Part shown: positions 1 through 19,550 of the stretch, piece after piece
How positions within the stretch are numbered: the stretch's first letter is position 1
Layout of the letters: every line of letters starts with the position of its first letter
Assembly (NCBI RefSeq): GCF_000518725.1
Contig: NZ_KI912486.1
Location: 2,916-66,915, forward strand
Source of the DNA: Mesoplasma seiffertii ATCC 49495
GTDB taxonomy: Bacteria; Bacillota_I; Bacilli_A; Mycoplasmatales; Mycoplasmataceae
Direction of reading: 5' to 3'
Length of the DNA: 64,000 bases
Made by a program: the position numbers and the translations under genes
The notes under the pieces: generated by a model
The model's input: only the letters and a program-made list of their open reading frames with translations
Database searches by the model: none
What the model was told of the DNA's origin: nothing

Positions 1-590
1 TCAGCTTTACCAATTGATAACTCAATTGTTGTTTGACCCTCTTCAATACCTTCAGCCAAAACATAACCTGACTTTGCTTCAACGATCACATTAAAAGTAT
101 GCTGTTCAAACGCCTTAGTTAATTTTGAAGCTTCTTTAACTTTAAAAGCATCAGTTTCAATTGCTTGAATTGCTGCTATTGCCAGTTCATCAGTTTCATA
201 TGTTTTTTCTTTAACTAATAGTTTGGTTAATTCAGCATCAACTAATTCTTTTGTGATTTTATTTTCTTGTTTATTATTTTTTATAAATTTTATAATTAGC
301 GGATTTGGTGTTTGATAGCCATCTTGCGCTATAAAAACTACCTTAATATTATTGTTAACAGTTGTAACATTGATACTTTCAATTCCCTCCGGCAAATCTG
401 AAATTATCGCAATTGCTTCTTTTGCTTGGTCAATTGTTTGGTGTCTACCTTGAGCTTCAAATATTACTTTTTTTTCAAATTCAGTAATATTTACTAATTT
501 ACCTTTTTCACGATTCCCACAAGCAACAACAGTTGTTGTTGCAATGGTAATCAACCCAACTGCTCCTAATAATGTTAATAACTTTTTCAT
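1..590 (-). CDS. Surface lipoprotein, N-terminal part (runs off window)
   Basis: The product starts MKKLLTLLGAVGLITIATTT and has a lipobox VVACGN, so it should be exported and lipid-anchored at the Cys near residue 24. The part inside the window (about 196 residues, C-terminus missing) holds two similar modules of roughly 80 residues. Each has a helix-like stretch (IDQAKEAIAIISDL; DELAIAAIQAI) followed by a beta-rich 'xGYxxxxxxIxxxI' end (QDGYQTPNPLIIKFI; KSGYVLAEGIEEG). Modular repeats of this kind are common in Spiroplasma and Mesoplasma lipoproteins of unknown function. The start has AAGAAAAGGAAAAACAATG. A 23-nt poly-T tract (coding strand) lies just upstream of its likely -10 region. The ligand is unknown. 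Confidence 0.85.
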   Translation of the reverse strand, partial: MKKLLTLLGAVGLITIATTTVVACGNREKGKLVNITEFEKKVIFEAQGRHQTIDQAKEAIAIISDLPEGIESINVTTVNNNIKVVFIAQDGYQTPNPLIIKFIKNNKQENKITKELVDAELTKLLVKEKTYETDELAIAAIQAIETDAFKVKEASKLTKAFEQHTFNVIVEAKSGYVLAEGIEEGQTTIELSIGKA

Positions 591-638
591 TGTTTTTCCT
601 TTTCTTGGTTATTTCCTATGCAGGATTTATTTACTCAC

Positions 639-661
639 AAAAAAAAAAAAAAAAAAAAAAA
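639..661 (-). repeat. 23-nt homopolymer in lipoprotein promoter
   Basis: An unbroken run of 23 A on the plus strand (T on the lipoprotein coding strand) ends about 49 nt before the lipoprotein ATG. It is followed by GTGAGTAAATAAATCC, where TAAATAAAT could serve as the -10. The tract would then occupy the -35 to -10 spacer. It also forms the U-run of the hairpin at 661-698. Such tracts change length by slippage. Confidence 0.7.
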
Positions 662-698: not shown

Positions 699-700
699 CC

Positions 701-789
701 TTTTGGTACTTTTTGGACGTTTTTTGGCAATTTTTGAACGTTTTTTGAATTTTGGCTTGTTTGCTTAAATCTTTTTTTCGACGTTTTTT
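701..789. promoter_or_regulatory. Helically phased T/A-tracts (probable bent DNA)
   Basis: T-runs are centred near 702.5, 712, 722.5, 733, 743.5, 775 and 786.5. Steps are about 10.5 bp, with the last two still close to phase after a gap. The core is a degenerate repeat of about 21 bp (TTTTTGGACGTTTTTTG, then TTTTTGAACGTTTTTTG). Phased A-tracts are known to curve DNA. This block sits upstream of the lipoprotein promoter. The rest of the 591-1031 gap (790-956) shows no gene. Confidence 0.55.
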
Positions 790-956
790 AAATTTAGCAG
801 GCTACTAATTTACTAGCTATTTTGTTTAAAACCAAATCTCATTATTATTTTTAAAGATATTCAATACATCATTTTAATGCCCTCTATAATATTTTATTAA
901 GCTAATAAGTTAATCTATTTGATCATTTTCTTCCACATTTGCTACATCAATTTTTC

Positions 957-983
957 AAAAAAAAAGTTAGAAACTCTAACTTT
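957..983 (-). terminator. Terminator after secY
   Basis: AAAGTTAGA (963-971), loop AAC, TCTAACTTT (975-983). On the minus strand it is followed by nine T. It lies about 50 nt past the secY stop and ends the S10-spc transcript. Confidence 0.85.
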
Positions 984-1031
984 ATTTTTTCGATTTCAAT
1001 GGTAATTAAGATGTTACAAAATTTTTGATTT

Positions 1032-2477
1032 CTATCAAATACTTGATGGGCGTCAAGTATCATTTTCAACTGTAAATTTTTCTTTTTTCTTGTCAATATA
1101 TGCTTGTTGAATCAAACGTCCTTTTAACTGTTGAACTGTTTGAATGGCAACAGAAATACAGATAATTAGTCCAGTTCCCCCAATCGCTAGATTAGATGGT
1201 AGGGATGTTAATTTTGAAATTACATATGGTAAAATTGCAATTCCTGATAAGAACAAGGCCCCTAAAACTGACAAACGATTAATTGTTCCGGTTAAGTATT
1301 TTTCAGTATCTTTTCCGGGTTTGATCCCTGGAATAAAGGTTCCTGATTTTTGGAAGTTCTCGGCAATCTTTTCCGGATTAATTTGTACTTGAGAATATAA
1401 GAACGTAAAGAGAATAATCATTACAGCATAAATTCCAATTCCTCATCATGTATCAAATGATAAGAAATGATTGGCAAAGTAAACAAACCCATTATCGCTT
1501 GTTCCCTTAGCATCAATAATTTGCGAAATCGTAATTGGTGTTGAGATAATCGCTGACGCAAAGATTACAGGAATAACTCCGGCGTTGTTAATTTTTAATG
1601 GTAAGTATGGTGTATGGTCTTTTGAATCAACTAGTCCTGATCCAGTTTGTTGAATTGGAATTTTTCGTTCGGCTTCATTGGTTAGGACAATTGCAAAGAT
1701 AACTAAGAAAAAGACCCCCACATAAATCATAAATTTTAAAATTCCGTCAAACAGAATTGCTGCTTCTTCATCTGTGTTTGAAACTCAGAATTGGAAAGTC
1801 GCTTTAAAGTTATTTGGCATTGTTGTAATAATTCCAATAAAAATAATAATTGAAACTCCATTACCAACACCTCTAACTGTAATTTGATCAGCAATTCATA
1901 ACATTAGAAATGAACCTGCTAACATAATTAGCGGTACAAGTACATAGTAAAATCCAGTCGATGCAGCTGACGTTGCATCACCTCACCCAGGAGTAATTAA
2001 GCCTTTTGCTTGCAAAGTAAAGATAGTTGCTTCTCCTTGCATAATTGCAAAGGGAATCATTAAGATCTTAGTTAATTTATCAAGTTTTTTACGACCACGT
2101 TCTCCAGATTTTGATCATCGTGATAGCACTGGAATCACATCTGTTGATAACAGTTGAACGATAATCGAAGCAGTAATATATGGAGAAACTCCCAATGCTA
2201 AAATTGAGAACTTCCCAATACTTCCTCCTCCTAAAGTTGAAAGTAGTTGAAAAAACTGAATATCAGAAACTCCACTTGTGAAGCCTTCATTAATTTTTAC
2301 CCCTGGTACAGTTATATAAATACCTACCCTTAAAATCAATAACACCAATAAAGTAAAAACGATTCTAAAAACCAAATCCTTATTTTTAGTAAAGAAATTA
2401 GTCCTTTCAAAATCGTTTTTCCCTTTAGATGTTTTAATGAAATTGGGCTTACGTTTTGTAGCTTTCTTCATTGCCAT
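1032..2477 (-). CDS. secY: Preprotein translocase subunit SecY
   Basis: This is the channel subunit of the Sec translocon in the cell membrane, 481 residues with about ten hydrophobic segments. Recognisable are the N-terminal cytosolic stretch and TM1 (FRIVFTLLVLLILRVGIYI), the plug-region residues that follow, and the loop TNEAERKIPIQQTG before TM7. Several Trp are UGA, so the reading frame is continuous only with code 4. The ATG abuts the rplO stop, and AGGTGATC just upstream is a strong Shine-Dalgarno; a second ATG two codons later is possible. The C-terminus ends ...DTWRPSSIW before TAG. secY is the last gene of the operon here, directly followed by a terminator, whereas adk-map-infA normally come next. 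Confidence 0.97.
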
Positions 2478-19506: not shown

Positions 19507-19550
19507 AAAAAAAAAAAAAAAGCCTTTTTTCAAAACAAATTGAAAAAGGC
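19507..19550 (-). terminator. Terminator downstream of the decayed gene
   Basis: GCCTTTTTTCAA and TTGAAAAAGGC pair around AAACAAA (19522-19550), followed on the minus strand by 15 T (19507-19521). Confidence 0.8.

Follow-up and report, generated by a model that had tools for sequence, protein, structure and literature searches.

Among the described systems closest to the locus studied here are the vlp promoters of Mycoplasma hyorhinis, which carry a poly-A tract according to Citti and Wise (1995) as cited in PMC10502178, and the Vmm and Vmc promoter-spacer switches of the M. mycoides cluster together with the vlhA GAA repeats of M. gallisepticum, in which the repeats are tied to expression (PMC10502178, PMC6258824). 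The T-tract of H. pylori sabA likewise has a length-dependent output (PMC4081817). Mapped Mollicutes promoters consist of TAWAAT with a TRTG or TGN extension, the -35 being degenerate in M. florum (PMC7745072, PMC5138195), and intrinsic (Rho-independent) terminators are known among Mollicutes in M. florum and M. hyopneumoniae (PMC7745072, PMC4411717).

The window, a stretch of 64,000 nt from Mesoplasma seiffertii ATCC 49495 (G000:C2:2916-66915; 31% GC, TGA translated as Trp), contains a T23 homopolymer at 639-661 on the minus strand (A23 on the plus strand). In a genome-wide run scan all other A/T homopolymers in the 978-kb genome were shorter, homopolymer lengths being assembly consensus values here and below; the bases read in the genome were the stretches around tracts and around lipoprotein starts. 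Within the window, runs of 5, 6, 7, 8 and 9 nt number 452, 182, 65, 12 and 1 and the only longer ones measure 15 and 23 nt, a fall-off against which a length of 23 is far beyond chance. The original prediction had placed a 23-T run on the coding strand about 49 nt before the ATG of a lipoprotein gene, and both the run and the gene were found; the approximate position stands while the exact distance is 48 nt, the ATG being at 590 on the minus strand and preceded by a Shine-Dalgarno-like AAAAGGA. The gene (1-590, minus strand, 728 codons in total) encodes a surface lipoprotein with an internal repeat and with LP_plasma and Vmc-like lipoprotein signal. It runs past the window edge, and its sequence is partial because the 355 bases just beyond that edge are N. 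Pfam matches on the lipoproteins were set aside, as they were weak or arose from repeats. Paralogues of this gene cluster at contig ends (L118, which is G000:C1:1-4500, L119 and L011), and those at C1:156, 1716 and 3127 have near-identical signal peptides and carry an upstream inverted repeat, TTGATTGCTAATAATCTCAGCAATCAA, in place of the T-run.

Directly upstream of the tract, on the same strand, the sequence folds into a hairpin at 662-697 with a 15-bp stem (662-676 paired with 683-697) and a 6-nt loop (677-682), the A/U pairs extending into the flanks, for a stability of -24.6 kcal/mol (z = -8.2 against shuffles). Since a stable hairpin followed directly by a T-run on one strand, as found at 639-697, makes an intrinsic terminator, the hairpin and T23 are together a predicted terminator of this type, in agreement with the earlier proposal that the tract completes an upstream terminator. 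An Rfam scan of the hairpin returned a match to mir-268 only, which scored below the gathering cut-off and was judged spurious. Just past secY (1032-2477, minus strand), the gene that closes the upstream ribosomal-protein cluster, lies a weaker terminator (957-1000, minus strand; -8.8 kcal/mol) whose tail is T9. This weaker terminator has no counterpart in the sister species G003, where a single terminator stands between secY and the lipoprotein gene. The secY and T23 terminators are separated by ~ 210-300 bp (window 700-1000, minus strand) that are missing from G003, and the only content of this interval is a short ORF of ~ 19 codons near 880-815 on the minus strand. The second long tract of the window, at 19507-19521 (A15 on the plus strand), is a terminator tail too, and its orthologous site in G003 has T16.

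The same layout was found throughout the genome. Indeed, every T-run of at least 15 in G000 was read and 25 of 25 directly follow a terminator-type hairpin, as do, by eye, both runs of 14, giving 27 of 27 tracts of at least 14. In G003 the layout is the same for 20 of 20 long tracts; one of these terminators, L142, has a weak fold of -7.4 kcal/mol that the stricter scan did not pick up, but its ortholog is the T15 terminator of the window (19507). T-run lengths are two-state, from 5 to 9 and then at least 14 with almost nothing between. The long tracts of G000 measure 14 (two), 15 (seven), 16 (eight), 17 (three), 18 (three), 20 (three) and 23 nt (one), the classes from 10 to 13 being empty, and those of G003 15 (one), 16 (fifteen) and 17 nt (four), while genome run counts gave zero tracts of at least 10 for the two remaining species of the genus. 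In 60 genomes of the family, tracts of at least 10 number 1307, of which 1019 (78%) reach at least 15, and among the genomes with at least 10 such tracts, 25 of 40 have more than 80% of them at 15 or above. Several T15-18 tracts of other genera (G006, G016, G019) stand without an evident upstream hairpin (L169, L173, L181, L183, L184, L187 and L188), so long tracts there are not always terminator tails; the tracts at L185 and L188 sit just before lipoprotein-like genes. A G follows the long tract in 33 of 44 cases in G000 and G003, compared with roughly 20-40% after short T-runs. A recurring terminator, AAGAGA...(loop)...ACTCTTG followed by T14-16 and GTTA, was seen at L013, L015 (two sites), L025, L154 and L158; it is often found before lipoprotein genes and looks like a duplicated cassette. 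In the literature on homopolymers of Mesoplasma or Spiroplasma, on phase variation and on terminator tails, we found no account of the long T-tail class, which, given the open-access scope of the search, is weak evidence.

The SecY protein of G003 is 96% identical to that of M. seiffertii (70% for Mesoplasma lactucae), and G003 carries after secY the orthologous lipoprotein gene, preceded by a diverged, homologous hairpin and encoding a protein with 8.1 copies of a 243-bp unit that are 99% identical. Its tract is T17, at an identical spacing of 48 nt from the ATG, the 23 versus 17 being a between-species difference with one genome compared per species. About 11 long tracts of G000 have a long counterpart at the orthologous site of G003, with G000/G003 lengths of, for example, 23/17, 20/16, 17/15, 15/16 and 16/16. 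At these sites, the long state is common to both species and the exact length is divergent. Furthermore, a search with the MutS_V profile gave no match to a MutS-family protein in six family genomes, in which the positive controls were detected, and slippage would therefore escape correction by that route. The locus has two features of a contingency locus, namely a repeat long enough to slip fast without mismatch repair and, as described below, an association with surface or variable genes; the length difference of the tract is one between sister species. The high chance of length instability expected from the beginning is supported by the missing MutS match and by T17 in the sister species: the length of T23 is probably unstable and length polymorphism at the tract is likely, whereas ON/OFF switching by tract length is unproven.

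Long tracts lie within 200 nt upstream, on the same strand, of 12 of the 42 lipoprotein genes in G000 and of 6 of the 25 in G003, a strong enrichment in both species. Assuming gene totals of 850 and 800 respectively, Fisher p values are ~ 4e-10 (808 other genes) or 3e-6 (an assumed 350 transcription-unit heads) for G000, and 1e-5 (all-gene background) or 1e-3 (an assumed 350 other transcription-unit heads) for G003, with the loci not fully independent since some duplicated cassettes share hairpins. Other genes found after long tracts, assigned by eye, comprise a C5-methyltransferase-like gene and further surface proteins, as well as the housekeeping-type mraZ, a threonine-dehydratase-like enzyme and ABC and PTS transporters. 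The enrichment suggests that something past passive drift, such as promoter insulation or expression tuning, may act; taken together with the empty gap between 9 and 14, it is not explained by passive drift alone. Both the enrichment and the two-state lengths were unexpected and leave room for a switch.

Concerning the promoter, a possible -10 had been proposed right after the tract. A candidate extended -10, TGTG-A-GTAAAT, is present at 639-629 on the minus strand, in keeping with the EXT/-10 layout of Mollicutes and with a TRTGAGTAAAT common to the paralogues, but it is weak, with 4/6 positions of TAWAAT by inspection, and no TATAAT-like hexamer of 5/6 occurs within 36 nt after the tract. 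With this candidate, the lipoprotein transcription start would fall near 619-622 and the tract at about -18 to -40. A sigma-70 scan called no promoter at the tract, its promoter-like matches being not above those in shuffles. The TRTGAGTAAATA element precedes lipoprotein genes both with and without a T-run. Indeed, TATGAGTAAAT is found before paralogous lipoprotein genes at C1:193890, where it follows a T17, and at C2:986, C2:101585 and C3:74655, where no long run adjoins, and a variant, TATGAGTAAG, is found at C10:4371, 31 nt past a T16. Hence the element is shared by the paralogues and the run is not. A further motif, TGAGTAAATA, was rejected as genus-wide (15 matches versus 4 in the reversed control for G000, 4 versus 4 for G003); its matches away from lipoprotein genes mostly look coding, one of them, in the window, being the first codons of another gene.

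The original prediction viewed the homopolymer as a -35/-10 spacer whose slippage, as in vlp, would toggle the lipoprotein gene ON and OFF. The position of the tract directly upstream of a repeat-bearing lipoprotein gene is indeed like that in vlp (PMC10502178), and the length difference between sister species and the enrichment before lipoprotein genes would also agree with such a switch, but the geometry at this locus makes it very unlikely. In a vlp-type arrangement the homopolymer lies between -35 and -10, at a spacing near 17 nt, and in every promoter of the family. Here T23 and the 4 nt or more that separate it from the -10 would put any -35 beyond the tract at a distance of at least 27 nt (at least 21 nt at T17), and the only upstream -35 candidates are in the hairpin stem with a 3/6 match. 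For any candidate -10 within 11 nt of a tract of at least 19, the -35 at 16-18 nt is TTTTTT within the tract itself, and slippage would consequently leave the -35/-10 spacing unchanged. Moreover, there is no constant -10 offset after long tracts, as a fixed -10 showed no excess after the 44 tracts of G000 and G003 (32% versus 34% shuffled, with 26-29% after short-tailed terminators). Of the 42 lipoprotein genes of G000, 12 have a long tract within 200 nt, and paralogues carry the same element without the run. The tract is one of the genome's terminator tails, as every other long tract is, and such tails also stand before mraZ, an ABC transporter and other genes; its membership in this class means that it is not special to the lipoprotein promoter, and the spacer role is thus not borne out. 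We regard as even less probable that the T count is a consensus error. Homopolymers are error-prone in sequencing, and lipoprotein repeats or long tracts stand at the ends of several contigs, but an independent genome in a single contig has T17 at the orthologous position, and tracts of this class are found again in most genomes of the family. The exact value of 23 may nevertheless be off by a few.

We consider it probable, in view of the hairpin, the sister-species tract and the genome-wide class, that the T23 run belongs to an intrinsic terminator as its over-long U-tail, adjoins a weak extended -10 lipoprotein promoter and is prone to slippage, any effect on expression being small or graded. 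The tail would end transcription arriving from upstream, and its 3' end would abut the weak extended -10 (TRTG-n-GTAAAT) driving the repeat-bearing surface lipoprotein. The tract would have grown by uncorrected replication slippage until, past the slippage threshold, it reached a long equilibrium length, which would still be varying. Its slippage origin, within-strain variation and effect on expression are what we infer. In intrinsic termination, lengthening the U-tail past ~ 9 should change termination little. Given an extended -10 promoter and a tract that covers the -35 region at ~ 19 nt or more, a change in length should not switch the -35/-10 spacing either, and lipoprotein expression would respond, if at all, slightly or by degrees, by way of DNA shape or of contacts made by RNA polymerase ahead of the -10. 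The weakness of the -10 at 629-639 is a point against this explanation, as are the T15-18 tracts of other genera that lack a hairpin, the lipoprotein enrichment and the empty length gap. In a stronger form of the graded effect, tract length itself would set lipoprotein expression through the shape of A/T-rich DNA or its contact with RNA polymerase, as a rheostat of the sabA kind. The tract lies beside the core promoter if the candidate extended -10 is right, with A-rich DNA further upstream of it, and the sabA precedent (PMC4081817), the lipoprotein enrichment in two species and the differing lengths at orthologous sites would all fit. Lipoprotein genes differ, however, in how far the tract stands from the ATG (31 to 147 nt), hence no fixed promoter geometry, and many long tails precede housekeeping genes; we therefore hold this possible but rather doubtful. 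A lower likelihood is given to selection of very long U-tails as extra-strong terminators shielding lipoprotein and other promoters from co-directional read-through, which we think unlikely. Most long-tailed terminators do lie between co-directional genes (a raw share, with no background rate), the hairpins are strong, and orthologous sites retain a long tract although its exact length and the hairpin sequence have changed; yet the two other species of the genus live without any tract of at least 10, so that long tails are dispensable, and other terminators manage with T5 to T9.

With the over-long terminator tail as the preferred explanation, a wider proposal can be made, although we advance it tentatively and think it improbable as a whole: the poly-T tracts of ~ 15-20 nt in Entomoplasma, Mesoplasma and Spiroplasma could be a maintained two-state element, mostly terminator tails in this genus and serving contingency or tuning upstream of surface lipoprotein genes, that is, a multi-locus length-variation system at terminator-promoter junctions in MutS-less bacteria. 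If length matters, these mollicutes would have a contingency system for surface lipoproteins that is built into terminators, in contrast to the promoter-spacer switches of animal mycoplasmas. If it does not, the two-state lengths still across many family genomes offer a natural case for slippage thresholds without mismatch repair. The locus also calls for caution, since not every poly-T before a lipoprotein gene is a vlp-type switch.

Compared with the intrinsic terminators of Mollicutes (PMC7745072, PMC4411717), the predicted terminator has the same hairpin followed by a U-tail closing a transcription unit, but long tails here measure 14-23 nt instead of 5-9 and T23 adjoins the promoter of the next gene. 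With Vmm, Vmc and vlhA it shares a simple repeat upstream of mollicute lipoprotein genes, and the signal peptide is Vmc-like; the repeat unit and its position differ, and the repeats of those systems are expression-linked whereas the present one is a candidate. As in M. hyorhinis vlp, a long A/T homopolymer stands right in front of a surface lipoprotein gene with repeats, but here the tract is a terminator tail, too long for a spacer and with T, not A, on the coding strand, and any switching by it is putative. The likeness to sabA (PMC4081817) lies in a slippage-prone poly-T run that precedes the core promoter of a surface-protein gene, although sabA has a length-dependent output and a terminator hairpin is no part of its model. 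Should length matter at this locus, the place of the tract upstream of the -10 would resemble the graded T-tract of H. pylori sabA more than the vlp switch, and an upstream effect of that kind would be the better fit.
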